The notes under the pieces are model-generated. The model ran no database searches. It had not been told where the DNA came from and worked only from the letters and a program-made list of their open reading frames with translations. From Heliocybe sulcata (taxonomy: Eukaryota; Basidiomycota; Agaricomycetes; Gloeophyllales; Gloeophyllaceae), in NCBI GenBank assembly GCA_004369045.1, contig ML213512.1, positions 449,453 through 513,452 of the forward strand: a DNA stretch of 64,000 nt, written 5' to 3'. Positions 18,966 through 56,781 of the stretch are shown piece by piece. Position numbers and translations under genes: made by a program. Each line of letters begins with the position of its first letter. The stretch's first letter is position 1.

Positions 18966-20911
18966 CTACCTTGTCCCTCGGCGACGCATCTGCCTTGTAT
19001 CACGTCGAGTAGGACGCCTCTGTCTTGGACCAGGAGGCGCTTCCGAGGCTCGTAGGAGGGAGACTAGGGCTACTTTGGGCAGCAGGACGATGCCTTGCTC
19101 AAAAGGCGCCCCAGCCTCCATTCCGCCCTTCTCGCGTCGCATCAGGCCCAACTGAGTGGTGCATAGGACGTGAACACCGTTGCTATCTGACAAGTCGTCT
19201 CCTCCATCCTCCTCCATGCGTTGAGGATCAAAGGGCTCTCCCGGTCGCACTAGCAACACAGTATAATCACAAGACGTGATAGACTCGCCGATCACATTCC
19301 GTATGCGAAACGAGAGCTGGATTATCCTGGCAAGGCGGCGTTCTATGGTTCCGAGGATTCGTGACCAGAGCTCATCGCCGACGCACCCAGTTACGCGACA
19401 GACCTGCTGAATAGCTTGTCTTGCTTTGGCCAACAAGTCCTGATACTGTGTGTCGCCGTCCCTGCATTGTCGCCGCATGTGCTCCCGAGCCAAAGAGCGC
19501 CAACGACCCGCGACACTATGAGGTTCTAGAGGAAAGTAAGTCGTTACTGCACTTTTGAGAGGCGAAATCACTGACGGTTAGCCAGAATGCTTTCGTACAG
19601 GTTCTTGTAGGCAATGTCTTCCTGCTCAGACTCTTCATTCGCCCGCGGCATGCCGTTCGCGAAGCCCAGCGTCCAGCTACTTATTATGCGCTCACTCCAC
19701 AGACAGACCGTGCACTCGATCGCAGCTAAAAGCACAGACGTGTCCTCAGTCGTCGCCAGGGCCTCTGCTAGAGTTTGCCCTAGAGATAGCCGAACGTCGT
19801 CTTGATACTGGGCTATCTGCGCTGGCTCGCTTCGATTGCGGAGGTCGACCGCATCCATTACAGTGGCCCCGAGGTGGAGCGTATCTGCGTTGAGATCGTC
19901 GAACATGTTCTTGATCTCCATGGCGAACATTGGTTCCACGGGTTTCAGGAACTTCTCCGCGAAACGGAGCTGCTTAGTGCGGTCCTGTAGAAGCCTTCCC
20001 TGGTCTTCATACGCCCTTGCCAGGGCCGCATAAGGCGCGGGCGCCTCTTCTGCTCCTGTTCTCTTCTCTTGCCGCAGGGTATGTAACTCCTGCTCGAGCG
20101 CTCTTCGTTTGCGGACCTCCTCGTCCAATCGTCTATCCCTATCCTCGACGCTCCTGTTCGCCGCCTCCAATACCTCCTCAGTTTGCTCCCTCTTCAGCTG
20201 TGAAGCGAGCAACTCCTGCTCCAACGATGTGCGCTTTCGGGATTCGTCGTCGAGCTGCCTATCCCGGTCCTCTACGTCTCTTCTCATCGCCTGCAAATCT
20301 TCCTGGGTTTGCTGGTCCATTTCCTGCGCAGCGTGCAATTCCTGCTCGACTGCTCTTCGCCTTTGAACCTCTGCATGGAGCTGCCTAGCCCGCTCCTCGA
20401 CCTCTCTCTTCACGGCGTCCAGCACCCCCTGCGTTTGCTTTCTCTCTTGCTGAGAAGTGTGCGATTCCTGCTCTAGCGTTCTTCGGGTTCGCATCTCGTC
20501 CTCGAGCTGCCTATCAACGTCTTCTATATATCTCGTCAAAGCCTTCAACTCCTCCTCCTTCTTTTGTTGCTCCGCTGTTGCCTCTTCCTTCTGCTGCTGC
20601 ACAGTATGTAGTCTCTGCTCCAACTCTCTTCGTCTTCGTGCTTCATCTTCCAGCCCCCTCTCCAGATCCTCTAATCTCCCTTTCGCGACCTCCAAGGCAT
20701 CCTCTGAGTAGCGCGGTGCCTGCTCTGGCGCGCTTATCTCGTCATCATCCCTGTCCCTGCTCTGGCCCTCATGCTCGACGTCTTGCTGTCCATTCGTGCG
20801 GTTTGTTCGTGCCTGACGTTCTAAGAACCTTATGACTGGCAACAGTATGGAGAGTAGGATATGCGCTGCACCGATCTTCACCCTACGAAGAAAACATCGA
20901 ATCCCAGGCAT
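18966..20911 (-). CDS. Coiled-coil protein B with 42-residue repeats
   Basis: Two exons (20911-19576 and 19525-18966) give 631 residues. Residues 7-30 are hydrophobic (AAHILLSILLPVIRFL) and could be a membrane anchor or signal anchor. Residues 78-289 are built of near-tandem 42-residue repeats, six heptads each. The C-terminal half matches coiled-coil A and C: DLNADTLHLGATVMDAV, then HSVAGRWRSLAREHMRR, ITSCDYTVLLVRPGEPFDP, VLCTTQLGLMRREKGG and LLPKVALVSLL, with a very basic end. It is head-to-head with HSP70-like B, 493 bp between starts. No enzymatic motif is seen; a structural or adaptor role is a guess. Confidence 0.78.
20045..20680 (-). repeat. 42-residue (126-nt) tandem coding repeats
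   Basis: Inside coiled-coil B: residues 78-127 (with an 8-residue insertion), 128-169, 170-211, 212-253 and a partial unit 254-289. The unit consensus is roughly VEDRDRQLDDEVRKRRALEQ followed by EL-x-A-x-Q-x(5)-QTQEVL-x-A-x-R. The last two full units are the most alike, which points to recent unit duplication. Confidence 0.85.
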
Positions 20912-21404: not shown

Positions 21405-23844
21405 ATGTCTAAGCTCCAGACGCCGTACGGGGGGTCTAATCGCAAGCTTTTGATTGCTCTAGATATCGGTACAACGTGCAGTGCCGTCTCTTATACCATT
21501 CTCGATCCTGGTGAAATACCGGAAATTCGGAGAGTACCAACGTATGTTTCATATGCGACTCATTAGTTGCCTCTCAGAACTTTGCTCTCAGGTTCCCGGG
21601 TTTGAACGGTTCACGAGCAGATGCCAAGCTGCCTTCAGTACTCTACTACAATGCAAAGGGTGATGTCCAGGCCGTTGGCTATGAAGCTGAAGACGCGTTT
21701 GAAACCGGGAAAGCCGAAGATGAGGACTGGATTCGGGTTGAATGGTGGGTACGCCCGCTGAAATCCGGAGGTCACTCTCACAGATAGAATACAGGTTCAA
21801 ACTCCACCTGCGTCCTAGGGGGTTAAGCGATCCGCATATACAAGATGAATCCATACCACCGATTCCGGAGAACAAGACAGTCACAGAAGTACTTGCAGAT
21901 TTCCTTCGATATCTCTTTGAATGCGCCAAGCGCTACATAACGACGACGTATACAGGTGGCGACGAAGTCCTCAAATTATTCGAAGGCGGTACAGAGTTTG
22001 TCATGGGACATCCCAATGGTTGGGGTGGTTTCCAGCAGCAGAACATGCGCCAGGCGGCGGTCAAAGCCGGGCTAGTACCCAGCATGGATGCCGCAGGAGA
22101 TCGGATCCAATTTGTGACTGAAGGAGAAGCGAGTCTATACTACTGCTTGACGGATACCTCTACATCTGACCACATCAAGGTGGGATTTCCGCGCTTCTCA
22201 TGCGAACATCCTACTGACGTGCGTTTGGCCCTCTTAGCCTGGAAACAGAATTATGATTGTGGATGCGGGAGGAGGCACTGTAGACCTGAGCTCTTACCTT
22301 ATCAAGCAGGTAGGACCTATAAAGCTGGAAGAAGTTGCCTCGCCTAGCTGTACATGAGCCGTCCACCTTTCTCTGCCAGATCTAACCCTTCCTCTGGCAG
22401 GTCGTCTACAGGGATCGGTATTCGTCGACGACCGAGCCAAGTCGTACATTCGTGGTGAGTATCCGGTATCACCGAGTTCGCGCTCTGACAGCTTCCTTGC
22501 ATCCGGTAGAGAAACTCAGGGGCTCTAGCTACGACGATCCTGAAGATATCAACCTCATTGCTCGGCGTTTCGGAGAAACGGGGAAGCGTTCGTTCGAGAG
22601 TGTTGATCAAGTGGTGATTATTCCATTTGGCGGCACTCGTGACAATCAGCCAAAGTACGGAATTATAAAAGGGAAGTTGAAATTGCAAGGGTAGGTCAGA
22701 AGGTCGGATGTTGATAATCAAGCTTACTGACGAGTTGATGGATTAGTGACGAGGTCCATCCCTTCTTCAATCCCTCTATCGAAGCGATATTGGACGCTAT
22801 ACGAGATCAGCGTCGGGAAGGTGGAGATATAAAGGTGCGATCTTGAGCGCTTATGCTCTGCGGGGGCATTCAGAACCAAGGACAGACGGTATTCTTTGTC
22901 GGAGGTTTCTCCACCAACCGGTACCTGTTTGACACCTTGCGCGCAAGACTAGCAGCTATTGGCATCGACGCCTCTCGTCCGGATGGATACACGTAAGTAA
23001 CCGCAGCTCCGAAGCATTGGCAGACCGGAGCTCATACACGACCTCCAGGAATAAGGCAGTCGCTGATGGCGCAGTGGCCTTCTACACGGAGAATGTGGTG
23101 ACCGTGCGGTTCGCCCGTGTCGCATACGGCACTCGAGGTATCAGAACGTACGACCGGACGAATCAAGAGCATAGAGCAAGGACACACGCGGTCATTCGAA
23201 GTGCGACAGGCATCGAGAATCTTCCTAATGCATTCCATTGCATTCTTCCTAAAGTGAGCACGAAATTGACTGAATACGACCATGTCTGACATAACTTCGT
23301 TTCCAAGGGGAGCAGGGTGGTACATGACCGCGAGCATGTGGAGACCTTTGCATTCGAAGTAAAGGACAAGAACTCCTTAAGAGACTCTGATATCACGCTC
23401 GTCACCTATAGTGGATGCTCTCCAGAACCACGGTGGACGGACGTAGACAGCGGTGAGTGGAATTCAATGATCAAAAGAAAGAGACTAACTGCAGTCCAGC
23501 TTCATACCGTGAATTAGGAAGAATCCGCGCTCCTGTATCTCAGAACTCGCACTTGCTCCAACTCGTCGATGACGGCAAAGGTCGCCAATTTTATCGTTTC
23601 ATCTTCCGCGTGGTATTGAAACTGGGACTCACTGAGCTTAAGGCGTGTATCGCGTGGACCGAGAATGTCAGTACAAGTTATTTTCTTGATCTTCCTGAGA
23701 CAAACTGATCATTCTTCGCTTGCTTTGTTATAGGGTCAAGAGAAAAGGTACGCACGGGCATCCGTTGTGGGATTATGGGCGCCCTAAAATCAATATTACA
23801 GGAGTCCAATATCCATCGTGTATGTTCGTCCTGAGGTCGATTAG
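21405..23844 (+). CDS. HSP70-like protein (HSPA12-type), copy B
   Basis: Paralogue of copies A and C. Motifs: IALDIGTTCSAVSYTILDPG at the N-terminus, GHPNGWGGFQQQNMRQAAV, RIQFVTEGEASLYYCL, MIVDAGGGTVDLSSYLI, and VFFVGGFSTNRYLFDTL. Exon joins follow the same positions as in the other copies; the last exon follows a GTACGC donor at 23755 and ends SPISIVYVRPEVD with TAG at 23842. The frame is open throughout, so this looks functional. It is the most divergent of the three at the N-terminus (Cys-Ser-Ala replaces Tyr/Phe-Ser-Gly after the DIGTT loop). Divergent partner: coiled-coil B. Predicted ATP binding is by homology; client unknown. Confidence 0.85.
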
Positions 23845-26488: not shown

Positions 26489-28961
26489 ATGCCGCCCTCT
26501 CAGTCTCGCGAACCGTACGACGGCTCTAGCCGCAAGCTCGTTCTCGCCTTGGACGTTGGTACAACTTTCAGTGGAATATCGTACGCTATCTTGGATCCCG
26601 GGGAAGTCCCGAAGATATTGACGGTGACATCGTATTACGGTTCTCGATGCCCCATTTTTCTTTGGGGTGACCATATCGTTTCTAGGTATCCTGGTCAAAC
26701 AAGCACCGGAGGAGACTCCAAAATTCCTTCCGTCATGTACTACGATGACGAAGGCGTTGTCCAAGCGGTTGGCCAAGAAGCAGAGAATTTGGCTGAGAGC
26801 GGAGAAGCAGAGGAGATGGAGTGGATCCGAGTTCAATGGCGCGTCTCTCTTCTGTTCGTGATGTCAGCAACGCTGATACCCGCGTACGCAGGTTCAAGCT
26901 GTGTCTTAGACCGAAAATGCTGAACGCTCCCCGTATCGCGGATGACTTGCTGTCTCGACTTCCGGTGTTCAAGACTATCATTGATGTTTTCGCTGATTTC
27001 CTCTCATATCTCTTCACTTGTGCGAAGGATTACATCAGGACTGCCCATGCAGCTGGTGATGCGCTCCTCCGCTCGTTGGAAGGGAACATAGACTTCGTGA
27101 TGGGGCATCCTAATGGGTGGGGTGGTTTACAGCAACAGCGAATGCGGAAGGCTGCTGTCGAGGCGGGACTAGTGCCTGATATGAAGGCCGCAGAGGACAG
27201 GATCCAGTTCGTGACTGAAGGGGAAGCCAGCCTGTACTACTGTCTGGAGAATGGCCTATCGTCCGACGCGATCAAGGTTCGATCTGTCTTATGTCTTGTC
27301 CCTGCAATTCTGACCAGTCCTCTCTTTAGCCGGACAACAAGATCATGATTGTGGACGCAGGAGGCGGAACCATCGACCTCAGCTCTTATCGTATCACGAA
27401 GGCGAAGCCTATCAAAGTCGAAGAAGTTGCAATACCTGGCTGTGAGTGAGAATGCGCTGCGTAGGTTCACTGCAGCTCGGCACTAAATTTTCGTCAGGCC
27501 GTGTGCACGGCTCCGTCTTCGTCAACGAACGAGCTACTGCATTCCTTTTTGGTGCGTACAATGGGCTACTACAGTATCCGACTTATGTGCCGTGCCGAAC
27601 TCTGTGGAGCAGAGAAACTCAAGGGTTCCATATACGATGATCCGCAAGACATCGACAACATCGTACGATCGTTTGAGAAGACCGTGAAGCGCAGGTTCAA
27701 AGCATCTAATGAGACAGTCCATATCCGTTTCGGATCAAGGAACGACAACGACCCAGAGTACGGTATATCGAAGGGGATTATGAAGCTGACTGGGTACGTT
27801 TCCCCTTTCCCGTATTCCCGTCTCGCTGGAACGTGTCTCGATCAGGAACGAGGTATCACAGTTCTTTAACCCTTCAGTGGACGCCATAGTCGACGCTGTC
27901 CAGGAGCAAAGACGGCAAGAGGGAGATATAAAGGTGAAGTCATCAGTATCATTGGTTCCGCTTCGAGTTGCACCTGACCTCTAGCTACAGACAATATTCT
28001 TTGTTGGGGGTTTCGCTGCCAACGACTACCTGTTCAGCAAGCTGCGTGGAGAACTGGCAGGCACTGGCATCGAAATCTCTCGTCCTAATGGATACACGTA
28101 CGTCTATACAATCCTACCTCCTTCGCAGCTGCTGTGGTCACTATGAACGGACCTTTTGCATGCCCAGTAACAAGGCAGTTGCCGACGGCGCACTGGTGTT
28201 CTACATGGACCATGTAGTGTGCACAAGGGTGGCTCGAACGATGTATGGCACCAAAACGAGCGTAGCTTACGATCCTAATCAATGGGAGCACAAGATGCGC
28301 TCGCATAGTATCTTCAGCTGGCCGTCAGGGCGCAAGGCTTTGCCTCACGCATACACACTCATGGTCATCAAAGTAGGCAGTTTCTCGATTGGCATATACA
28401 TACTAACATGCATTATCCTACTTAGGGAAGCAAGATCAACACGGAAGAAGAATACGTCAGCGACCTCTTCAGGGAGGCGATAGACCCAGATACCATAATC
28501 TATGGACTTGAATCCGAGGCTGTCGTCGCCTACAGTGGCGCTTCCACTTACCCTCAGTGGACCGATGTCGAACCTGGTGAACCTGTCAGCTCTTGAGAGA
28601 GTAACGAACTAATCACACGTACCAGAATCATATCACACGCTCTGCACCATTCGCGCTGACGTTTCACAGGCAGTTCAGTGCCTTAAACCCATGCTAGGTC
28701 CGAGGCGCCAAATTTACTACAGGTTCGACTTCAAGATTGTGCTGAAATTCGGACTCACGGAGCTCAAAGCTTATACGGCATGGACGGAAAACGTGAGCAG
28801 TCGCCTTGTTTACCGTCCTCGATGAGATAGCTAATCATCGTAATTAATTGTACCCGTCAGGGTGTGGAGAAAAGGTGTGACAGATTTCTTCGATCCCACT
28901 ATCACTGCGCTGACCTAGGACCTGCAGAAGCCCGGCAAGCATTGTGTATTTGGAGGAGTGA
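26489..28961 (+). CDS. HSP70-like protein (HSPA12-type), copy C
   Basis: Closest to copy A. Motifs: LALDVGTTFSGISYAILDPG, FVMGHPNGWGGLQQQRMRKA, RIQFVTEGEASLYYCLENGL, IMIVDAGGGTIDLSSYRI, IFFVGGFAANDYLFSKLRG, and NKAVADGALVFYMDHVVC. Introns lie at the same positions as in A and B (for example donor GTGAGT near 27444 and donor GTGCGT near 27552). The last exon ends SPASIVYLEE with TGA at 28959. About 580 residues, intact. Adenine-nucleotide binding is predicted from the phosphate loops; there is no canonical HSP70 substrate-binding domain after the ATPase-like part, as is usual for HSPA12 relatives. Confidence 0.86.
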
Positions 28962-37561: not shown

Positions 37562-39221
37562 CTAGAGACGAGACCGTTCCATAGTGACCTCTGGAGGAAC
37601 ACCAAGATCCTCTGCTGAACAGAGATCCGAGAGGCGCAGGATCTCTGTCTTGGACGGCGATCGAGTAGTCGCGTGCGGTACGAACGCCCTGTCTACTGCG
37701 AACTTCTTGACCACAGAGGGATCCAATGTTCCAGAGACGAGATCCGCTGTTATCTGCCCGAGGACGGGTAGAAACTGATGGCGACGTCCTTGTCTGTTCG
37801 ATCTCTGGCATCTGAACGAGGTCGCGATGCACTTACCTTGTATGCGTGGCCGCTTCCTCCAGTTGCGATCACCAGACCGGTGTCGTCAGGATAATACCCT
37901 ATGAGCCAATCTTCGTCAGGCGTATCCGTGTACCTGCATGGCGGAGTCAGAACCACTGGAGACCGCGTCATTACTAGCGAGTCTACGGACCAGCACAATC
38001 TGGTTGTGGCGAACGGTTTCTTGGAAAGATCTGGATACGTCGTGGACAGAAGAGCTCGTATATCGTGCAACATTGTTTTCGGCACGCGGAGGCCATCGTC
38101 TCCGTGAGACGATAGTGTTCTGGGCGTAGATATGGACGACTTGCTCTGGCCTATCACGACTGGATTGATATGACCACCACAGTGTTTGCCCATCTTTAGG
38201 ATGTTGTCTTTATTGGGCTGAATGAACCGGCGCGCTCTGTAAAATATCTATCCGGAGGACACATGAGAGAACTTACAGGAAATATGTAGAACCCGGTCTT
38301 GTAGTTGACCATGCACGGGCAGTCTCGATACTGGTCGCCTTCCTCTGGGGTTAACTGCATGGTCACCACGCTCTGCCTAGCAAAGACGATCTCATTAGCA
38401 GGTTTGCTTCTGCTACGTCTAAACGCCTACCCTGCCGCAACGCATGTCTCTTGCAGCCGTAGTTCTGGAAAGTTGGAAGCGGTCCAGGATCCTGTCGCGA
38501 TGATGACGAAGTCCGCCTTGAAAGTGGTTCCATCAGCACACTCGACGCCAGCTGTCCTGCTATTCTCTCTGACAAGCTTTCTGACAGCTTTCCCAGCATA
38601 TACTTGACCGCCCATGGCCTGAACCTTGTCGATCATGAGCGAAGTCGCCTTTGCAGCGTCCACCCACCCGCCATCCCAACTGATGTACCCCTTGAATAGG
38701 CCCGTACGAACGCGAGAAGGCAGCACGGATTGGATAGCAGTATTGTCAGGTAGGTCCTGAACACGAGCGCCCATAGCAAGATCAGTCTTGTATGCGGCAT
38801 CGGTGTAGGGATCATTGCCCACGCCGCCCATGAGCACGCCTGATCTGCAAACACTCGTAAGCAGCCACAGAGCGAGTCTGCTTGACATAAATTGTGTTAC
38901 TCGTGGTAGACGCCTGGCCACTCTGCCTGGTCGTTCCATGCCGCTATCGCCTGGCGGCATAGTTTGTTGTAGAACGGGTCGGAGTACGAACTCCGGACCA
39001 CTAGAGCCAGAAGGTCAGCTATCAGTCAGTACAGCGAGCCAGATGTTGTACACACTCCGATTGATGTCAGTACTGGCTGCGTCTGGAGCAGGCAGCATAG
39101 GAGATTTGTCCAGGACCGTCACGCATGTGTATGCGCGTTTCAAGAGATGGTAGGCAGTCGAAATCCCGAAGCATCCAGCGCCAATTATGACTATCCTGCT
39201 GGAGGACTCGATAGACTGCAT
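37562..39221 (-). CDS. FAD-dependent amine oxidase (sarcosine / saccharopine / fructosyl-amino-acid oxidase type)
   Basis: DAO-fold flavoenzyme oxidising secondary amines. The N-terminal FAD loop is RIVIIGAGCFGISTAYHLL, followed by DINRMVRSSYSDPFYNK over an intron. Further motifs are WVDAAKATSLMIDKVQAMGG, VIIATGSWTASNFPEL, LCWYTDTPDEDWLIGYYPDD (the Cys aligns with the covalent-flavin Cys of amadoriase-type enzymes) and VIATGGSGHAYKFLP near the end. About 440 residues in seven or so exons, stop TAG at 37564-37562. No clear peroxisomal SKL-type ending (ends SRL, a permitted variant of the PTS1 tripeptide, so peroxisomal import is possible). Substrate among proline-like, saccharopine or fructosyl amino acids cannot be decided. 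Confidence 0.87.
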
Positions 39222-39648: not shown

Positions 39649-39656
39649 GCTCAGCC
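39649..39656 (+). repeat. Target-site duplication, left copy
   Basis: GCTCAGCC directly outside the left terminal inverted repeat, identical to 45915-45922. Confidence 0.88.
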
Positions 39657-39693
39657 CAAGGGGCGGACACCGGGAGATGCCGAGACCGGACGT
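39657..39693 (+). repeat. Left terminal inverted repeat
   Basis: Blocks 39657-39669 and 39683-39693 are the exact reverse complements of 45902-45914 and 45878-45888. The 13-nt spacer differs completely between the ends, suggesting that the two blocks are separate transposase contact sites. Confidence 0.9.
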
Positions 39694-39733
39694 GGGGGAG
39701 GGGGGGGGGCTCCGAGGGCCTTAACGGAGATTT
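39694..39733 (+). repeat. Subterminal G-rich 40-mer, left copy
   Basis: Starts GGGGGA followed by ten G, ends CTTAACGGAGATTT. It matches 45835-45874 at 33 of 40 positions in direct (not inverted) orientation and abuts the terminal repeat. Confidence 0.8.
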
Positions 39734-39977
39734 ATTTGGAATAAAAAAAAAATACTTATAGAGGCTCTCCTGAGAGGCAGCATGCATTGTAAAGTGCGCT
39801 AGAGTGTATACAGCCATTAAACAGCCCCATAGAACGATGGAATTGCACTTTCCGGTGCCGGAGTGACCCGCATGAGTGACATAACGCGTCAAAGTGACGA
39901 GTATACGCGAGCGACGCGACCTACTTTTACCTCATCATTGTTCTATCACGTCAAGAGTGTCTATTTACAGCTGTATA

Positions 39978-42900
39978 ATGACCCACGGAAGGAAGAAGAA
40001 GGCCAATGCAGCGGTGAGCCTTTGCAATCCTATCCCTAAGTGGTCCGCTCATGGCTATTACAGTTGGACCTGGCTTCACGCTGGTGCGACATCTGCGGCA
40101 GACATATCACAGTGGGAACGGGCGGGGACGCGAACTGGGAACACCATCTCAGAAGCAAGAACCACGCTGACAACGACAAGCTGAACGGACCGAAATTCAA
40201 GAAGCTCACTGCATGGTTCACGCATCCGCAGTCTTCTCGCAATGTTTCGGCCAGTTCGTCCACCTTGACGGACAACGGGACTACCGATAGACAGCAAGAT
40301 ACCATCGACGTTGACTCCCGTTCCGATGCCTGTTCATCGGACACTGCCATGGATGTGGACGGTCTCCCTTCTCTGATGACATCTATGACTGGTGACCCAG
40401 TCGGAGAGCAGAGCGGTCCGCCAAGTGCTTCCCTTGTCGAGCGCATTCGGGTCTTAGCAGCAGATCTCCCTCCTACTATTCCCCTGGCGACGAAGGAAGA
40501 CTCTTTGGCGGCATTCAGTACTGACCCAGTTGGCACGTTCAGGGCCGGCGATGTGGAGGATCCTTGGGAAATGGTCAATACAATGCTCCATAGTGTCTTA
40601 GGTTACGCAGCAACAATACATACCATATTGCCTATGATTCGCCGTGGACCGTTGGGAGTGGAAGCTCTGTGTACATGGCTGGAACGGTGTTTCCAAGAGC
40701 TGAACATCGATCCTGTGCTTGTGGAGAGCAGGCTGGAGGTGGTCTGCCAGGCTTTGAGAAAATGGTAGGTGGAGCCCATCTTCGACGACGAGCACCCGCG
40801 ACTAATTGATGTACCTTCTACAGTCTTGCACCATCTATCTGTCATACCGACAAGAGTACCGACTCAACAAGGAGCTCGCTGATCACCAGCTATAGTACGG
40901 GCGATACACCCGCCTATGACCGCACAGAACTCAGCTGTCTGACAAGGTGTCCAGGTCTCGAGCTGGAAATGCCGAAAGGTGCACTCCCATATGGTGTTTA
41001 TCCTTTTGGTCTCCACACGATACAATCGCTGCCCTGGAACACACTCGTCACCAACAAACAGCTCTTTCTTATATCCACTCATTGCCGCGGCGTTGCTGCT
41101 CTCGAAAATGGACATGCATTTCCGTGCCGTAAATGCAGGGAACTCTCCAAGCATGACGCTCTGCTAGGGATTCGCGACCGGATTGCCAATGGCTGTCACG
41201 ACAGCTTGAAACATGCATATCGCTCTCATTTCCAGCTCGTTGATGTTGTTCATTGCTGCCAAAACCAGGTGGACACTCTCCGATTCGGAGGGTTGAATAT
41301 GGGCCGCAAACTCACAGTCAAATGTCGAACTATGGGCCTCGCTAACCGCATCCTCATGGAAATTGCGAGAGGAGACATACCAAGTGTCTCTCGGAAGCTA
41401 CGAGTTGCCCTACGGAATGGCACAGGCTTGATGGGTGTCCTAGAAAAATTCGTAGCTGCAGTAGAGCGGCTCAGCACCACGACAGACCCCATAGAAGCAG
41501 ATCTGCATCGGATGTATCTATTTGCCAAGTTAGGTGGTGCGCAAGTTGCCCGTATCGCTCAACACAGCTTGAACTTGCCCTTGGCACGAACTGCAACCCG
41601 TCGACTGGATGTTCATCCACTCTGCGCATCTCCGAGCTATCCCACTCCAGACGATATACACCACAATCTGTCCATTGTATTCCCTCCGAAGGTGGAAGAC
41701 GTCAATCCGCACCCTTTTGAAGAGGCGGTAACGATGTTCGCCGATGAGCTGAAGCTCGAGGAGAGATTGCGGTGGGATGCTGCAACAAATAATATTCTGG
41801 GTGTTTGCCGTGAGCATTCAAAATTGGTTTCGCTCGAGTTCCGGTCGATGCTGCAGGCCGATGCTCTTCATGAAGCACTCAGGAACACCTCCTTGCCGGA
41901 GCATGACCGTGTACATCTAGCGACGGAGGTAAGTGTACGCCGATGATCTTTTTGTGTATACGCTGAAACAAGGTGCCAGGCCACTGTCATAGCTGTGCGT
42001 GTGCTCTCTGACAATGCTCGTCAAAATGCTGCTCGTCCAATAATTGTCTCCGGCACTTGCAAGCGGGAGAATGTACAAGCGCAGCACAGTCTACTATTGA
42101 ATGCCATCAACACCTTCGATGCTCATGAATGCGGACAGCGGCGTCGACTCTATTCCATCGCTACAGACGGCGACTCCCGTCGCCATCGTGCTGTAGCTCT
42201 GCTTACTCTCCAGCACAGTCTAACATCGGCTTCATTGATCTATCAGCATCTGCATCCGCTACCGTTGTTCAATCTGCTATGCGGAGAGGATGACTTGACC
42301 GGGGATCTCGACTACAAGCATGTCATTAAGCGCTTCCGCAACACACTGCTCCGAGGACGTGGCATCACCATCGACGGAATAAGCATTACAAGAGCTATAC
42401 TCGCTCAACATCTTCTGCGGGAAGGCCAAGAGCATTGTCATATTCATTCCCTGCTATCACCCAACGACAAACAGGATGTTACGCTTGCCTATACACTCTT
42501 GCTCTCCATCTCCGATTTTGACTATGATCCTGAATCATCTCAAGGATCTCCCGCGTTCTTGGAGGCCCGCCGTGTCCTAGCCCTGCTTGGACATATGTAT
42601 CGATATATCCTAGAAGCATATACTGATGTTCAGCTTGATCTGAGTGGACAGCTGGAGTCTCTTTCGGCGGCCGCTCATCTCTGTCTGGCGCTCTATGCCG
42701 AGAACAAGGGTGGCTTCGTTCCAGTTCAATTGTACTACGATGTGATGACCATGATCAAGAATGCATACTTCTGTGTCGCGAAAGCAATGTCAGCAAACCC
42801 GAATGGCAAGTTCTACCTGATCCTTCTGGGAACAGACTCTCTGGAAACACTATTCGGCATTGTACGGACTATGGTCGGGAATGATACCAACGCAGATCAG

Positions 42901-45571
42901 CTACAGTTATCGTCTAGACTAACAACCGCCTCCCTCTGCTCTTCGCTACTTCAGTTGCATCCGGAATGGGATCAGGGTCCTCGCCGCCTGAAGTTACTGA
43001 CTTTACGCTCGGGTGATGGGGTAGTGGCTCGTAAGTACGATCATATAAATCCCTCCTCGTGGAAGGGTGATGTATCCTTGAATCGTGTTGTCTTACTCAC
43101 GTCATGGCAACTCGGGAAGCACAAGGCGGTAAAAGCACTTCAGCAGTGCCGGTTCACGCCTCCGTTCGAAAAAATGGAGTCATCTGGCAGCTTTGATATA
43201 CTCTGCCCGTTCGGTCAAGATAAAGTCGTGCTCATCGGTGGTATATGTGCCGGGGAACGAGAAGAGGATGTTGAAGAGCAAGACGAGACAGGCATCACAC
43301 TCCAAGGGAGCCCAGTCGCTGTCACTGATCCCACCGAGATACAGCCTGGCTATGGAGCTCCGGAAAAGTCGGCAGTCAACCAGGATGAGGATGTGGAACC
43401 TGACCTCGAGGACTTGGTCTCGTCTGAAATGCCCATGGTTGTGAATCCTCAGGAGCCGGGCGATACTACTATGTGCGCGACATACAGCGCCTGGATTCCG
43501 ATGGATGCTGGGGTCCCGGATCTAGCCAATCGACAGCACAAGGCGAGGATCTTACGGATGTACTCAAAACCAATGAGTATCCAGAGCTCAAAGGATCGCC
43601 TGCGGCGCATCAATGGCTTGTCTGCATATAATGAATCTACAGCCAGGACCCTTGTGTGCTCGTACGACGAGGGGCTGTCTCTTCTCGATATCCACAGCCC
43701 CGTCCTCACTCTTGTACGATGTAATGGCCGTGTATTTCTTGCAGCTGCCCTTGTCATCGACATTCGTATCAATAACGAAACCGTACAGACCGTACCATGC
43801 TCTGATCTGCGTGAGCCAAGTGTCCGTGTCAGAGTGCAGATTATGCACCTTGCGCAGCGGTCTCGCGCACAGCTGGAATCGGTCGACGCTGCACGCAATA
43901 CATCCACGGAAGAATGGGAGTGGACGAGTGAATTCGAACAATTACCCAGAGTCTCGTCGTCGAGGGAGCTTGAGGGGCGCTGGGTTGAAGTTGTGAACCC
44001 GGAGCTCAAGCCTAGCACTCGGAAGACCCAGGATAGTGCACCGACATATATTTTTGATTCAGAGTCGCTGAAGGCGGCCTCCCTTCTCTTATATGAACGG
44101 CTGAAGCAGGAGATCGACGATCTCCCCAAATTACCCCTGACTTTGACATTTCCTTACCGTTCTTTCGATGGTGCGTGTTTCGTCATTTTCTCGCCATTCC
44201 TGGCCTCACGATCCTTTAGAGAAAGCTTGCTTCTTATGCGACGTGGATGTCGATTCACAGGATAGCCGCAATGAAGAACACCGCTGCCACCTCTGCCCAT
44301 GGCTCGTTATCGATAAAGGACCCAAGCTCATTGAACATATTTCACTTCACCTTCTTTTCGACGCCCAAATCCTCCACGCAGATTCGCCATGCGGCTTGTG
44401 CCTTAACTTGGGGAATCTGTGCAGAATCCGGCTGTGCAAGGGTCCCAGCGGTAAGGATATCATTGACATGCAACACTCCCAATGTCGGAACCTCTACAAG
44501 GTGCAACTCACTAGTGCAGGAAAGTGCACGAAGACTTCACCATGTACAAATGTCCCAACAGTGTGCCCTGCTTGTCCGACTCCGTCGGATGCAATCTGGA
44601 AGTATAACTTCGATGCACACTTTGACACGGTTCATCCCAGGGTAGACAAAGAGCGCCATCGTGCGGCCTTCGCAATCTCAGATGCCGAAAGGGACTCAAT
44701 GCGAGAGCGGTACAAGACCAAGCCAAGGAAACAATGTGCCAAAGCGAAGCGAGTTGTTGCGCTCCCTATTTCCGAAGCTCACAGTTCTCGCGTAGTGATG
44801 AGGTATTAATCTTTTCTATATTGTTCGGTGATTATGCTTACTTCGGCTATGCAGGGCTCCCGATACCCGTAGTTTGGAGGAGACCGATCCTACTGTGTAT
44901 GACTTCTTTGGCAGTTCCATGCCACTGTCGCCCTCTGTGACCTCCTGTGATATACCCACCACTTCGAATGCCGGACTCGACCAAGCTGTCATTGCAGGAC
45001 CCCCATCCCAGGCCACCACTGCTACTGAGCAATCAACGACCGGACACGACGATGCTGAGGATTTTCGAGCACCAGCACCGTCGTGCGTTGTTCCTGACTT
45101 AAGGAACAGGAAGCGGACTGCCGCTGATGCAGAGATCAATGAACCTGACATCGCGGCTTTGGTGAACGGTAAGTGTGATCCTTGTGTCATACAAGCGGCG
45201 CCAGGCTCATCTATTTACTTTATGAAGTCGAATATTCTCAACAGTGTGAGTCTGTAACTAGCACGGGTCGTAATGCTGCACCTCCGGAGAGAGACGATGC
45301 AGACAGAGACGAGTTCTGCTGGTGCAGGGGTCCCGAGGAAGGCGACATGGTGAAGTGTGATGGACCGGACTGCAGCGGATGGGTCAGGCTAATTCTAATC
45401 TTCGCTGTTCTTTTGCTGACATATCCTCAGTTTCATTTCGAGTGTGTCGATTTGCTCGAAGAGCCCTCGGGCGCTTGGTTCTGCTCAGACACCTGCGAGT
45501 CGAAAGCCCGCTTGAACCTCAAGATCAGAGTCCCTTCTCTTGGCTCAAGAAAGAAGCAGAGGACAAACTGA
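39978..45571 (+). CDS. Transposase: C2H2 finger, RNase H-like core, C-terminal PHD finger
   Basis: About 1,550 residues over eight or so exons, all in frame. The first exon MTHGRKKKANAA joins LDLASRWCDICGRHITVG, which starts a U1/C2H2-type zinc finger (C-x2-C, then H-x5-H in HHLRSKNH). The core has candidate acidic catalytic positions: Asp in LRWDAATNNILGVCREH (about 41770), Asp in YSIATDGDSRRHRAVAL (about 42150) and Glu in GTDSLETLFGIVRTMVGNDT (about 42835). The last resembles the D-x-LE-x-FF-x-IR motif of P-type transposases. A Cys/His-rich block follows at 44220-44640 (ACFLCDVDVD, HRCHLCPWL, CGLCLNLG, TVCPACPTP). The C-terminus is an ING-like PHD finger: FCWCRGPEEGDMVKCDGPDC, then FHFECVDLLEEPSGAWFCSD. 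It ends RKKQRTN. Catalytic residue assignment is inference; the fold and fusion are read from sequence. Confidence 0.85.
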
Positions 45572-45817
45572 ACTATCCCATATGGACGTAAGCAGCTTGC
45601 GGCTTCGTTACCCGTTGCCCGATTAATGCGACGTATATTGCTTAACTCTCTCTTATATACCACTTTGGATAGTCTTCTATAAAACACTTGCTTCTCATTA
45701 AAACTATTTTCCAAGTAATAACAGAGCCATAGACCACTGTCCAGAGTGCCGGGGCAGGTACAGGATATTTATCACACTACGGAGAAACATATGTTTTGCG
45801 ACATTTGCCTTTTTAGA

Positions 45818-45836
45818 CCGTGGGACATTCCCACGG
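45818..45836 (+). repeat. Perfect hairpin CCGTGGGA-CAT-TCCCACGG
   Basis: An 8-bp stem with 3-nt loop, overlapping the start of the right G-rich 40-mer. Absent from the left end. Could act as a terminator-like or protein-binding structure; role unknown. Confidence 0.7.
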
Positions 45837-45874
45837 GGGAGGGGGGGGAGCCTAGAGACCCTTAACTGAGATTT
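45835..45874 (+). repeat. Subterminal G-rich 40-mer, right copy
   Basis: Direct-orientation partner of 39694-39733, three bases inside the right terminal repeat. Contains GGGGGA followed by eight G and CTTAACTGAGATTT. Confidence 0.8.
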
Positions 45875-45877
45875 CTG

Positions 45878-45914
45878 ACGTCCGGTCTTTTATTTTATTT
45901 CTGTCCGCCCCTTG
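45878..45914 (-). repeat. Right terminal inverted repeat
   Basis: Reverse complement of the left end in both blocks (11 of 11 and 13 of 13), with an AT-rich 13-nt spacer. Confidence 0.9.
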
Positions 45915-45922
45915 GCTCAGCC
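45915..45922 (+). repeat. Target-site duplication, right copy
   Basis: GCTCAGCC, identical to 39649-39656. Confidence 0.88.
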
Positions 45923-46652
45923 ACATTTTCCACGCGTGCATCTTGAATCTCATCCTTGTTGACTTGAGCATATTACTGGCCAAAATATCCTCTATCGAGG
46001 ACTTTAGGACATCTGCGCGCTGCATTTATTCTCCTCTGCGCCAGTGACATTATGCCACGACTTCCGCATCCCCCAAAATCTCGTTTAGGTACGCGAACAG
46101 TTACTTCGTATGCTATTATCTCATCGAACAATGGCCTGATCGATTCCAGAATACCAGCGGAGTGAGGTCGGCTGAAATGGGGATTAATATAACGTCGCCT
46201 TGAAACACCGTTCCTCGCTTTAGAAGTGCTGCAAGCAGCTGGTGAATGTTAATGAACTCCTGAATCTCGTACGTAAAAGAGACGTTCCATGCGGCAGGAA
46301 CGACAAATCGCAGCACAGGGGCCTCGGCTAAGCAATTAGCCGAGAATCCAACCAATCCGAGCGAACCCGTCGGACCCTGAAACGCTCAATCAAAATATAT
46401 AAAGGTCGCGCCAGAAGGGCCCTATTTTTCCTCGTCGCGTTTACATTCCATTCGACGTCCTTCACAGCTCTCTCCTGACGCGTCTATCACCACTCACAGC
46501 TCTCTGAGCTTTCCTATCCAGCCCCGTTGCATGTTCTCGAACCAGCTGGGCAGCGTTCACAACCCCCACCGCGGAAGCAAGCACTCTGCTCCTCCCCCTC
46601 TAGCAAATCATTAATTTCGCCTTGTCTCTTTGGTCACATTTACTCTTTCAAC
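45923..46652. other. Upstream region of inositol-phosphate synthase
   Basis: No supported gene. A 79-residue minus-strand open frame at 46116-46355 has no family features. The insertion duplication ends 730 bp upstream of the INO1 start codon, so the transposon may sit close to its promoter. Confidence 0.45.
46396..46403 (+). promoter_or_regulatory. TATA box of INO1
   Basis: TATATAAA about 250 bp before the start codon, followed by a pyrimidine-rich leader. A textbook TATA is consistent with a highly expressed, regulated metabolic gene. Confidence 0.5.
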
Positions 46653-48423
46653 ATGGCTCCCGCTACGAACTCGTCCGGTCTGAACACCCCTGAGTCGGAA
46701 CTTGAGGGCTTCGTGCCCGTACACCCGACCGCTGCACGCCCTGTTCCCATCGCTGTGCAGTCCGAGAGCGTTTCATACTCGGATGAACATATTGTGTCCA
46801 AGTTCTCCAACCGCGGCTCTGAGGCCGTCTTCGCTAATGGCCAGTACAGCGTCAAGCCCACTGTCAAACCGTTCGAGTTCCAGACGACTCGCAAGGTCTC
46901 CAAGACTGGGTGAGTGCTAGAGTATTTTTTCAAGGCGAACACCGCTAATGTGCTCCTTTCAGTCTCATGATGGTCGGTATGGGCGGCAATAATGGCACGA
47001 CGCTGTCCGCTACCATCATCGCGAACCGTCACGGCATCTCTTGGCGCACCAAGTCCGGCATCCAGCAGCCCAACTACATCGGCTCCGTCCTGCGTGCGTC
47101 CACCGTCAGCATCGGAACGGACCCCAGCACTGGAAAGGAGGTGTACGTCCCCATCTCGTCCATCCTGCCGATGGTCCACCCCAACGACCTCGTGCTGGGT
47201 GGGTGGGACATCTCCGGTCTGCCCATGGACAAGGCGATGGAGCGGGCGCAGGTGCTCGACTGGGACTTGCAGCGCCAGGTCGCACCGCATATGGCGGAGA
47301 TCGGCAAACCCCTCCCATCCATCTACTACCCCGACTTTATCGCCGCGAACCAGGAGGCCCGCGCGGACAATGTCGTTCCAGGCACCGACAAGCAGGTGCA
47401 CCTCGAGCACCTGCGCGCCGACATCCGGACCTTCAAGGAGAAGCACGCGCTCGACCGCGTCATTGTGTTTTGGACGGCGAACACCGAGCGTTACAGCGAC
47501 ATCATCCCCGGTGTGAACGACACGGCAGACAACCTGCTCGCGGCGATCAAGTCGTCGCACTCGGAAGTGTCGCCGTCGACACTGTTCGCTGTCGCGGCGA
47601 TCCTCGAGGGCGAGCCCTTCGTCAACGGTGCGCCGCAGAACACGTTTGTGCCGGGCGTGATCCAGCTCGCGGAGCGCCACCACTCGTTCATTGGCGGTGA
47701 CGACTTGAAGTCCGGACAGACGAAGCTGAAGAGCGTGTTCGCTGAGTTCCTAGTGAATGCTGGCATCAAGCCGTTGTCGATCGCGTCGTACAACCACCTC
47801 GGAAACAACGACGGGCACAACTTGTCGGCGGAGCCGCAGTTCAAGAGCAAGGAGATCAGCAAGAGCAGCGTCGTGGACGATATGGTGAATGCCAACAGGC
47901 TGCTTTACAAGCCGCCTGCGGAGGGCGCGACGGGCAAGGCGGCCAAGGGCGAGCATCCTGATCATATTGTCGTGATCAAGTATGTCCCCGCGGTGGGCGA
48001 CTCGAAGAGGGCGATCGATGAGTACTACTCGGAGATTTTGATGGGTGGTCGCTCGACGATCAACATCTTCAATGAGTGCGAGGTCTGTGTCAATCTTCTA
48101 ATGCTACGGTCCGTGATTGATGTGACGTATCATATTTCTAGGACTCGCTTCTGGCTACGCCGCTCATTCTCGACCTGAGCATCCTTGCCGAGCTCCTGAC
48201 CCGCGTCAAGTACCGCGATGTCTCTGCCGGGCAGACCGAGTTCAAGCCGCTGTACCCGATCTTGTCGCTGTTGTCGTACATGCTCAAGGCGCCGCTCGTC
48301 AAGCCCGGCACGGACGTTGTCAACAGCTTGAGTCGCCAGCGTAACGCGCTCGAGGCGTTCTTGAAGGCGTGCATTGGTCTGGAGGGCAGTGGGGATCTGC
48401 TGCTCGAGACAAGGATTTGGTAA
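46653..48423 (+). CDS. INO1: Inositol-3-phosphate synthase
   Basis: Converts glucose 6-phosphate to 1D-myo-inositol 3-phosphate with NAD, the committed step of inositol and phosphatidylinositol synthesis. Exons 46653-46909, 46963-48082 and 48142-48423 give 552 residues, the usual fungal length. NAD loop [17 protein letters not shown]; further family motifs [80 protein letters not shown] (active-site region) and [20 protein letters not shown]; ends LLLETRIW. Strongly GC-rich at third positions (a long open frame arises on the opposite strand), typical of highly expressed genes. Confidence 0.97.
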
Positions 48424-53925: not shown

Positions 53926-55455
53926 ATGTATGGCTTTTCGTCAGTCCCGGACGGCATGGAGTGCACTGAACGACGTGTCTCGCACCTCCACTCTCGCTAC
54001 ACCTATTCTTTCAAGATTGCATGGGCCCGACATTCGTTGCCCTCTCCTAAGGGCACTCTGTTACCTCAACTGGGCGGAATCGCTGGATTTAAGGATCCAT
54101 TTAAGCGCTCTCTGCCACTGGAGTCAGGTTTCCGGTTTGGATTTGAAGTAATCGGGCCTGCGGATGCATATGCGGGTCTCTCCATCTTTGTGGATACATC
54201 AGAAGTAGTGCCAGATTCCCATCTCTACTCTCTGGATTTGCGCGTCGATAGCCCTAACGGGACTGCGATCTTGCTCAAGGCCAGAAAGATTGAGTTGCGA
54301 AGGCCACGGCTCGTCCTCTGCGACTACAAAGCCAAAGACCACATACCGGACGGTACTGCTGCGTATACCACGACTTTTATATTCACTCTTACGAGCCGTG
54401 ACCCTCTCGCCGATGCTCCACGTGAAGATCTCCACCTGCAAAAGATGCTGGATGTATCCATGTCAAGCGGATCATTCATAGATACCCGTTTCTATGTGTA
54501 CTCTCGGCGGGGGCCCCATGGGGGAGCCTGCAAGCCTCTACCGCTGTTTCTCAATAGCACTATTCTCAAGGATAAATGTGCTTATTTTGATACATGTACG
54601 TGAATGTTATAAACATCCATCCGCTATCTCTAGGCAATCTAACATATCTAATTTCTAGTGCTTTCAACTGCGCACTTCTCCGAGTCGACGTTGAAGCTAT
54701 TGAACGACGGATTTCCGCCGAACGAGGAACGAGAATTCCTCGAGTACGACTACGACTCTGACAGTGATCTATCCGAAACTCCGGATCTTGCTGACGTGAT
54801 GGAGACCGATAATAAGCATGGTCCTGCAATGTTGGGCAGGACCGTTGTGGTGAAAGACATAGCTTACCGAACGTGAGTCCTCTCCATATCATCAGATCAT
54901 GCATGTCCTCAATCGTTTTCCTGAATAGATTGAAAACGCTCACCATGTACCTGTACACGGGGAAGATATCTTTCCTGCATCTGACATCGTGCGAAGCACG
55001 CCCCATTGCACGCGCCGTTGAACGACGACAGGGGTTCAAATGCTCTCCCAAATCTATGTACCGTCTGGCGGACAAGGTCAGTCCTATCTCAACATCCATT
55101 CCACGGATACTCAGCTCTATACAAGCTCGGGATGGAGGACCTGAAGAGACTGGCCTTCGACGCGATCAAGAAGGACTTGTCCGAAGAGAACATCCTGGAG
55201 GAAGCATTCTCCAAGTTCACTTCGACGTGTGTACTATCTCCGATTTCGGACTGGTATCGTCACTGACCAGTGTCTGTCTGTAGATACAACGAGATAGAGA
55301 TAATGGAGGTTGAAATCTTGAAGCAGAAGTCTCGCTCACCACGACTGGTGGCTGGAATGGACAGTATTATAACAAAGGGGATAGAGAATGGTGAACTTCC
55401 GCATGCGAAGCGAGTTTTTGCGGCACTTTTCAAGCATCTCGCCAGTGGCAAGTAA
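53926..55455 (+). CDS. BTB/POZ-domain protein
   Basis: N-terminal MATH-like or beta-rich region (YTYSFKIAWARHSLPSPKGT, GFRFGFEVIGPADAYAGLSI) is followed by a BTB domain. After an intron (54598-54657) come STAHFSESTLKLLNDGFPPN, the acidic insert DYDSDSDLSETPDL and LKTLTMYLYTGKISFLHL, then SMYRLADK joined to LGMEDLKRLAFDAIKKDLSE and ENILEEAFSKFTSTYNEIEI. It ends HAKRVFAALFKHLASGK. About 420 residues in five exons. Such proteins often act as cullin-3 adaptors, but the partner is unknown. The start at 53926 is the first ATG of the long exon; upstream coding is possible. A frameshifted copy of its last two exons lies at 56190-56493. Confidence 0.75.
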
Positions 55456-56189
55456 TTGAGGTATTGTTTCGGGCTGTCAGGTATATCTACAAATCTCTTG
55501 TATTCACGTATGGGTGCTCGTGTACGCTAGCAGACGATGGGTGAAGAACTCCGTATAACTATCTCTCTCCAATCAATCCAGGCGAACGATCTTGTGTGGG
55601 CCTCAGAAGCAAGGTAAAATATATCGACGTTTGACAATCAGTTATAGGTAGTACCGGGTCAAGATGCGGACTAGTGTGTGACATAAGTGCACCGGTTCCG
55701 ACGTCAAGGTGCTATGCTGACAAGCAAGTAACAGTCCGGAGTCAAGGCTCAAAATACTACACAGAACAGAAGTATTATTGTAGATACACTATAACGCTAC
55801 AGCTTTTGAACATATAGGCTGGACGTGTAAGAATTCGGAGGTGATACCCCTTACATCGATCATGGCTATGAGCTAAATGGTAACTCGCAAAACATTCTGC
55901 GATGAATTATACGCTCAATTGCAATAAAAATATACCTAAATTACACAGACTGTGTGAGTGATGGCGCAGCATGGCTTCGCAAATGGCATGCCAGTAATGC
56001 GTTCGTGCTAGTAGTACAAGTCACACCCAGCCACAAGCGCGCGATAGACAGGCACGTGATTACGGTCACAGTGTCACCGACTACTTACTCCTGATACTAT
56101 CTTATCTGGAGTGGTCAGGCAACCTCCTCGAGGTAAGCTCTCCTGTAGACTCTTTCCGGTAGAACACACTAGCCGCCAGATTTGGGTAC
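55456..56189. other. Intergenic, no gene recognised
   Basis: AT-rich stretch between the BTB gene and its fragment. Nothing recognised. Confidence 0.4.
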
Positions 56190-56493
56190 TCAAGGCTCTA
56201 GCACTTTATGCCATAGAGGCGATCTGTCGGAAGCGAATGTCCTGGAAGAAGCATTCTCTAAGTTTACCTCCACGTCAGTACCGCCCACGCAATGATTACA
56301 CCTGTTACTGACGTGCAACAGTTACAGCCAAGTTGAGGAAATGGAGGATGCAATCCTGAAGAAGAACTCACGCTCTCCCGGCGTCGTCGCTGGTATGGAC
56401 GAGCTCCTACGTAGAGCAGTCAAAGAAGGGGAGCTGCCTCATGCAGACAGAGTCCTTGCGGCGCTGTTCAAACACCTCGCCGATGGGAAGTGA
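56190..56493 (+). pseudogene. BTB protein 3' fragment, frameshifted
   Basis: Corresponds to the last two exons of the BTB gene at 53926-55455. LKALALYAIE aligns to LKRLAFDAIK in one frame. The frame then shifts by one and continues DLSEANVLEEAFSKFTST. A GTCAGT...CAG intron at the same position leads to YSQVEEMEDAILKKNSRSPG, VVAGMDELLRRAVKEGELPH and AALFKHLADGK with TGA at 56491. No upstream BTB part is visible, so it is a truncated relic, although most of the frame is preserved. Confidence 0.75.
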
Positions 56494-56781
56494 TCAAGGC
56501 ACCAGGGCGCAAACCGACTGCCTCCGACGGCGAGCAGCGTCATCCTACGGGAACGTTCCGTCATGACAGGACGAAATTGTGGCACAGTGTGGTTCGGTGC
56601 GCGGTCAGGAAGCCGCTGCCACATCGATCTTCGCGGGTTAGGGTTTGCATCGCCTATTCATAGTGAGCAAGTGTGAAATAGTTCTGACCGTCAGGTGGCT
56701 CGACCCATGACAGTATGTCCCTTATTCTATTATGGCCTATATCCAAGAATCCCAATTGTAAAAAAAACAATGCACTGTACA

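Follow-up and report, generated by a model that had tools for sequence, protein, structure and literature searches.

A complete DNA transposon of Heliocybe sulcata that is probably related to the P-element superfamily and encodes an ING-like PHD finger

In a stretch of 64,000 nucleotides (nt) from the fungus Heliocybe sulcata (contig ML213512.1, positions 449,453 to 513,452; referred to here as the window, whose own numbering is used throughout), we found a complete transposable element of 6,258 base pairs (bp) that occupies positions 39657–45914. The element has intact ends, is flanked by a target-site duplication and contains one open gene, whose product ends in a sequence-recognisable PHD finger and has a core that aligns to the Drosophila P transposase beyond what shuffled sequences reach. 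On this evidence we regard it as probably an autonomous DNA transposon of the cut-and-paste type, from a fungal lineage with ties to the P-element superfamily.

The boundaries of the element were read directly from the sequence. A perfectly matching 8-bp duplication, GCTCAGCC, which has no strand of its own, lies immediately outside the element at 39649–39656 and 45915–45922, and the element itself begins and ends with perfect 13-bp terminal inverted repeats, CAAGGGGCGGACA on the plus strand at 39657–39669 and its reverse complement, on the minus strand, at 45902–45914. Further in lies a perfect 11-bp inverted block, AGACCGGACGT on the plus strand at 39683–39693 (positions 27–37 from the end) and its reverse complement, on the minus strand, at 45878–45888, and at both ends alike 13 nt separate this block from the terminal repeat. 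The initial annotation had reported the terminal inverted repeats, the identical 8-bp flanks and a second inverted block 13 nt inside each repeat, and these hold base for base. Its wording of bipartite terminal repeats describes the inverted structure correctly but is incomplete, as it overlooked a 40-nt direct repeat that is present at both ends. This repeat, a G-run followed by ...CTTAACGGAGATTT, lies on the plus strand at 39694–39733 (positions 38–77 from the left end) and recurs in the same orientation at 45835–45874 (positions 41–80 from the right end), with no gap to the inverted block at the left end and a gap of 3 nt at the right end. The two copies are 83% identical, consist of a long G-run and a 24-nt part in which 18 of 24 positions match, and are not exceeded in length by any other direct repeat within the element. 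Over the outer 37 bp the two ends agree in register at 26 of the 37 positions, and the symmetry is lost further in. The G-rich direct repeat also places a GGGGGAGGGGGGGG run near both ends on one strand, a possible G-quadruplex sequence.

We compared the ends with 3,000,000 random position pairs drawn from the window. A 13-bp inverted match in register occurred in none of these pairs, an 11-bp one inside positions 14–60 in 18 and the two together in none, and the 8-bp flanks agreed in 94; the combination of terminal repeats, subterminal blocks and duplication is beyond chance. With up to two mismatches allowed, the terminal repeat finds only its own two matches within the window. The second block, with one mismatch, has one extra match in the window (46671–46681), and three or more matches also occur in 10 of 100 shuffles. 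Outside the element, the best match in the window to the 37-bp ends is 22/37, and neither tblastn nor self-blastn revealed a further copy within the window. Because the duplication starts with G and ends with C, the inverted match reaches 14 bp, and boundaries with 14-bp repeats and a 7-bp duplication were considered and rejected: the 7-bp flanks then differ, so the 8-bp duplication is the consistent reading.

The transposase gene (39978–45571, plus strand) is a model predicted from the genomic sequence by the presence of GT...AG introns and by frame continuity. It comprises eight exons (39978–40013, 40064–40764, 40824–41928, 41980–44170, 44220–44802, 44855–45168, 45228–45382 and 45431–45571) separated by seven predicted introns of 48–59 nt, all of them GT...AG, and the spliced product of 1,741 residues contains no internal stop. 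The one intact gene of the initial annotation is therefore recovered once the introns are removed, and its description of the whole as a complete DNA transposon is well supported by the ends, the duplication, the intact gene and the transposase-like core. In the coding sequence of about 5.2 kb, 3.7% of single substitutions would create a stop, and the absence of any stop therefore suggests that neutral decay since the element last worked amounts to less than roughly 2%. The open coding sequence is the better clock in this respect, as little about time can be read from perfect identity over the duplication (8 bp) and the inverted repeats (24 bp). The recent, perhaps ongoing, mobility suggested by the initial annotation would fit these observations. 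Two of the seven predicted introns, 41929–41979 within the core and 45383–45430 within the PHD finger, have lengths divisible by three; the first contains an in-frame stop and the second does not, so that these introns, if retained, would truncate the protein or break up the PHD finger. In the fly P element, intron retention serves as a means of regulation (PMC7776569).

In the fly enzyme the catalytic signature of the P superfamily consists of D230, D303, a [C/D](2)H motif at D339, and E531 (PMC8230255), and the element protein contains candidates for every one of these residues in the same order, all encoded on the plus strand. The candidate first aspartate is D553 (FADELKL, 41743–41745), and the candidate catalytic glutamate is E903 (TDSLETLFGIVR, 42844–42846), the putative counterpart of P E531 (NQDIVEHFFGSMR). 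Under all four settings of a global alignment, D230 pairs with D553, E531 with E903 and the fly residue D528 with D900; the E531–E903 pair also recurs in three of four local settings. The motif D725xxH728 (DYKHVIKRFRN, 42310–42321) is the proposed counterpart of P D339xxH342 (DTPHLIKLVRN): H342 falls on H728 in all four local settings and one global setting, and D339 falls on D725 in three local settings and one global setting. A motif of the [C/D](2)H form is not exclusive to the P superfamily. For the second aspartate we prefer D677 (ATDGDS, 42166–42168), which pairs with D303 in one of the four global settings, because the preceding stretch, VIAVRVLSDNARQNAARPIIVSGT, appears to fit the strand-turn-strand that precedes D303 in the fly enzyme; D677 as the second catalytic aspartate is thus a proposal from strand order. 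The alternative is D625 (IAVRVLSD, 42010–42012), which takes the place opposite D303 in another of the four global settings and in the chain of segments described below. The successive spacings of the candidates are 124, 48 and 178 residues by way of D677 and 72, 100 and 178 by way of D625, compared with 73, 36 and 192 in P. The 178 residues between D725 and E903 would form an insertion similar in length to the GTP (guanosine triphosphate)-binding insertion of the fly enzyme, which lies at 339–528 (PMC8230255), and this stretch is not matched by PF21788.

Several comparisons connect this core to the P transposase, for which we used a fly core sequence that agrees throughout with PDB 6p5a_A. 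The score of the global alignment was reached by 0, 0 and 3 per 1,000 shuffles in three settings and by 0 of 1,000 in a fourth (z = 4.8), and this fourth setting pairs the whole signature (D553, D677, D725, H728 and E903), as does 1 of its 1,000 shuffles. In an ungapped-block test, with blocks of two lengths around each of four fly residues, both E531 blocks fall on E903 (0.064 and 0.002) and the short D230 block falls on D553 (0.086). A chain of collinear ungapped segments, whose thresholds and whose stretch (residues 481–960) were selected after a first alignment had been viewed, scores 111; its 300 shuffles average 65.1 and do not exceed 102. When the chain was repeated with 60 shuffles for each sequence, the core gave z = 4.8 and ten of ten control segments gave −2.0 to 0.9; three of these controls came from the same protein and seven from other frames of the window, some of them overlap, and two are pairs of frames joined end to end. 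Among the Pfam models, the Drosophila P core matches PF21787, PF21788 and PF21789, and PF21789 (TNP-like_RNaseH_C) gives a marginal match to a 77-residue piece of the fungal protein over the catalytic glutamate (E = 0.054; 13.9 bits, the cut-off being 24).

Other results weigh against a P relationship, or against details of it. No Pfam transposase model exceeds its cut-off in the whole protein or in pieces of it (the whole-protein scan includes residues 246–294, which the piecewise scans omitted); PF21787 and PF21788 match none of the queries, PF21789 is not listed for the longer queries or the whole protein, and in the scan that gave its marginal match it was outscored by IcmR (E = 0.012), a family without meaning here. 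The local alignments are weak, their scores being reached by 6, 39 and 44 per 1,000 shuffles in three settings, and in another local comparison at least 1 of 300 shuffles beats the observed score. The pairing of the second aspartate and of the DxxH motif depends on the setting: D303 falls on D677 in one global setting, on D625 in one and on no aspartate in two, leaving D625 as a competitor, and D339xxH342 meets D725xxH728 in only one global setting of four. In the block test the long D230 block favours another site, and all four blocks around D303 and D339 miss the proposed residues. The segment chain likewise pairs D303 with D625 and puts the D339 region out of register, and the reversed sequence scores 76 in it, about one standard deviation over the null mean. 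An AlphaFold model of the core, built without relatives, has a mean predicted local distance difference test (pLDDT) of 35.3. A THAP domain finds no Pfam match in the whole protein or in pieces, and in the global setting that pairs the whole signature the greater part of the GTP pocket is not conserved, with K400 replaced by Asp and F443, D444 and N447 by Gly, His and Arg. Beyond the core, the Pfam PHD model scores 18.9 bits on the whole protein, which is under its cut-off, and the boundaries of the element were drawn from a single copy.

The residues of the fly enzyme to which nucleotide binding is ascribed are D528, K385, K400, V401, S409, F443, D444 and N447 (PMC7776569), of which D444 is essential (PMC8230255). 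In the global setting under which the whole signature is paired, the fungal protein keeps D528 and V401, as D900 and V781, and two further positions are changed, K385 to Arg and S409 to Leu, in addition to the four that are lost. Judged from this alignment, GTP dependence should not be assumed for the fungal element. Searches elsewhere gave little: phmmer of the core against PDB returned one and two matches (E 0.38–1.6), which we take as chance, and no relative was confirmed in viral contigs (three scans with 4, 19 and 36 pattern matches) or in bacterial and archaeal genomes (two scans with 54 and 178 pattern matches), as expected because the element is fungal. Weighing all tests, we consider a relation to P likely, though not proven.

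The protein has a C-terminal PHD finger of the ING/YNG type (residues ~1673–1719, 45314–45502, plus strand), whose coding sequence is split by the intron at 45383–45430. Its zinc ligands, C1674, C1676, C1687, C1692, H1697, C1700, C1713 and C1717, follow the Cys4-His-Cys3 order. At E up to 0.001, phmmer matches the finger to 34 entries of PDB, the best being yeast YNG2 (1e-15), followed by YNG1, ING4 and ING5, and over the last 100 residues the Pfam PHD model scores 24.7 bits against its cut-off of 24. The finger shares the ligand set with the ING/YNG fingers and a Cys-x3-Cys ending with YNG1; at the positions that form the methyl-lysine cage in ING/YNG fingers, Met and Trp are retained and the cage Tyr is replaced by Phe. 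Unlike in the ING/YNG proteins, the finger is part of a transposase. ING PHD fingers bind histone H3 trimethylated at lysine 4 (H3K4me3), and for this reason histone binding by the finger of the element is plausible. Two further regions were read by eye as putative zinc fingers, a C2H2-like finger at the N terminus (residues ~19–46, 40082–40165, plus strand) and a Cys/His-rich cluster towards the C terminus (residues ~1348–1485, 44228–44641, plus strand), neither of which has a Pfam match above cut-off.

An unlikely alternative is that the element belongs to a fungus-specific superfamily of its own and has only the general RNase-H (ribonuclease H) and [C/D]xxH plan in common with P, by deep ancestry or partial convergence. 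Every Pfam transposase model stays under its cut-off, the protein has more than double the length of the P transposase, neither a THAP domain nor the greater part of the GTP-pocket residues is found, and the alignment does not fix the second catalytic aspartate. What argues for a P relative instead is that the core aligns with P better than the shuffles and the control segments do, that the marginal RNaseH_C match at the catalytic glutamate is of the P type, and that the distance from D725 to E903 comes near that of the fly insertion.

A hAT-superfamily transposon would also have an 8-bp duplication, short terminal repeats starting with CA and an N-terminal zinc finger, and the duplication and the CAAGGGG-type ends of the element fit it, as does its Cys2-His2-like N-terminal finger. 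We nevertheless consider this identity very improbable: the region of the catalytic glutamate resembles P, GCTCAGCC lacks the nTnnnnAn form that hAT elements prefer, and no hAT dimerisation, BED or hAT-associated Pfam model is listed for the whole protein or its parts at E up to 10, a limit within which HMMER filters discard most matches above E 0.1; a further scan at E up to 1 listed no hAT domain either. Membership in the Kyakuja-Dileera-Zisupton (KDZ) group, which is common in mushrooms, was considered first and proved unsupported. That group would account for a DNA transposon of large size in a fungus, for Cys-rich accessory domains and for an 8-bp duplication, the length known from Zisupton, yet no KDZ, CxC or TET/JBP Pfam model is listed and the core aligns with P, which makes this the least credible of the three. 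The sequence comparison with hAT and KDZ was confined to Pfam models. A P-related transposon remains the reading that we regard as probable.

The likeness to the Drosophila P element (PDB 6P5A) extends beyond the core. Both elements produce an 8-bp duplication, a feature not unique to P, both combine perfect terminal repeats with 11-bp subterminal inverted repeats and further internal sites, putative ones in the fungal element, and both carry a single transposase gene with introns (PMC7776569). The two cores can be aligned end to end and have a long insertion before the catalytic glutamate. The differences are that the terminal repeats measure 31 bp in P and 13 bp here, that the P element is 2.9 kb and the fungal element 6.3 kb long, that the P transposase, like the vertebrate members of the superfamily, has a THAP domain where the fungal protein has C2H2-like fingers, and that the GTP pocket is largely unrecognisable in the fungal protein. 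The domains listed for the fly P protein in PMC7776569 do not include a PHD finger, which the fungal element has.

Fungal P-like elements are already catalogued, since a category of DNA transposons called 'P-Fungi', presumably a RepeatMasker/Dfam name, is printed in repeat tables. Similar hypothetical proteins are probably numerous in mushroom genomes. The tables give the category with number 10 and length 46,557 for Pleurotus ostreatus PC80 (PMC12387193) and with one element for Phakopsora pachyrhizi (PMC6136362), and the same label appears in a table for Daphnia (PMC8594854); our element may belong to this category. In the open-licence library searched, no paper matched the P superfamily or P elements together with fungal terms, and among the matches listed there no title or beginning of an abstract mentions a PHD finger on a transposase of the P type. 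Among other transposases, a PHD finger on the protein or associated with it has been reported from Rehavkus and suggested for piggyBac, and RAG2 is known to have one (PMC6446971, PMC2533014, PMC7204232). The RAG1L-RAG2L pair and Rehavkus resemble the element as DDE recombinases or transposons tied to PHD fingers (PMC6446971, PMC7204232); their catalytic superfamilies differ from that of the element, and the RAG finger sits on the partner protein RAG2. The element is best seen as a good specimen of an already known kind, and possibly, on account of its PHD finger, as a variant of it.

Two divergently transcribed genes, whose starts were read by eye, flank the element. On the left, ~436 bp separate its end from position 39221, where a minus-strand gene for a flavin adenine dinucleotide (FAD)-dependent oxidoreductase with a GAGCFG motif is taken to start; on the right, ~740 bp separate its end from position 46653, the presumed start of a plus-strand myo-inositol-phosphate synthase gene. 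This is a site where a promoter-seeking element would be expected, although one insertion proves nothing; P elements prefer promoters (PMC7776569). A short open minus-strand frame at ~46110–46380, between the element and the synthase gene, may be due to chance or may be a small gene; if it is a gene, the right neighbour of the element would change. Other genes in the window include TCP-1 and RasGEF, and these neighbours, like the short introns of the element, point to a eukaryote and are compatible with a fungus, probably a mushroom-forming basidiomycete. Elsewhere in the window, self-blastn detects mutual identity of 65–67% in parts of 1433–2735, 21844–22351 and 26499–27799, probably a local paralogous family, and the frame at 1602–2309 has no Pfam match at E 0.001. 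Internal repeats at 20082–20556 (68–70% identity, offsets of 126 and 252 nt) fall within a minus-strand frame with a weak coiled-coil match, and 55178–55456 is 67% identical to 56225–56494, about 1 kb away.

We propose the following working scheme, in which the binding sites, the exact catalytic residues, the chemistry and the chromatin targeting are what we infer. The zinc fingers and the pre-catalytic region would bind the subterminal blocks, either the 11-bp inverted block, the 40-nt direct repeat or both, and the bound transposase would pair the two element ends. Cleavage at the CA...TG ends would then fall to the split RNase-H core (D553, D677 or D625, and E903), in which an insertion of ~178 residues begins at D725xxH, and joining of these ends to the target with an 8-bp stagger would give the GCTCAGCC duplication. 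Through its ING-like PHD finger at the C terminus, the transposase is probably tethered to H3K4-methylated nucleosomes and hence to promoters. A more specific version is tentative and rather doubtful: a P-type transposase that captured an ING-like PHD finger would be steered through H3K4 methylation to active promoters, and its inverted blocks and direct repeat would distinguish the two ends, in much the way that unequal spacings serve the P element of the fly. The parallel between the asymmetric ends of the two elements is suggestive.

If the relationship is real, the element would be a relative of the P element from a fungus, complete and with all of its ends intact, and would be of use for the question whether dependence on GTP and possession of a THAP domain are traits of the superfamily as a whole or of its animal branch only. 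The fused PHD finger, for its part, predicts insertion at H3K4-methylated promoters, which can be checked from the positions of copies.

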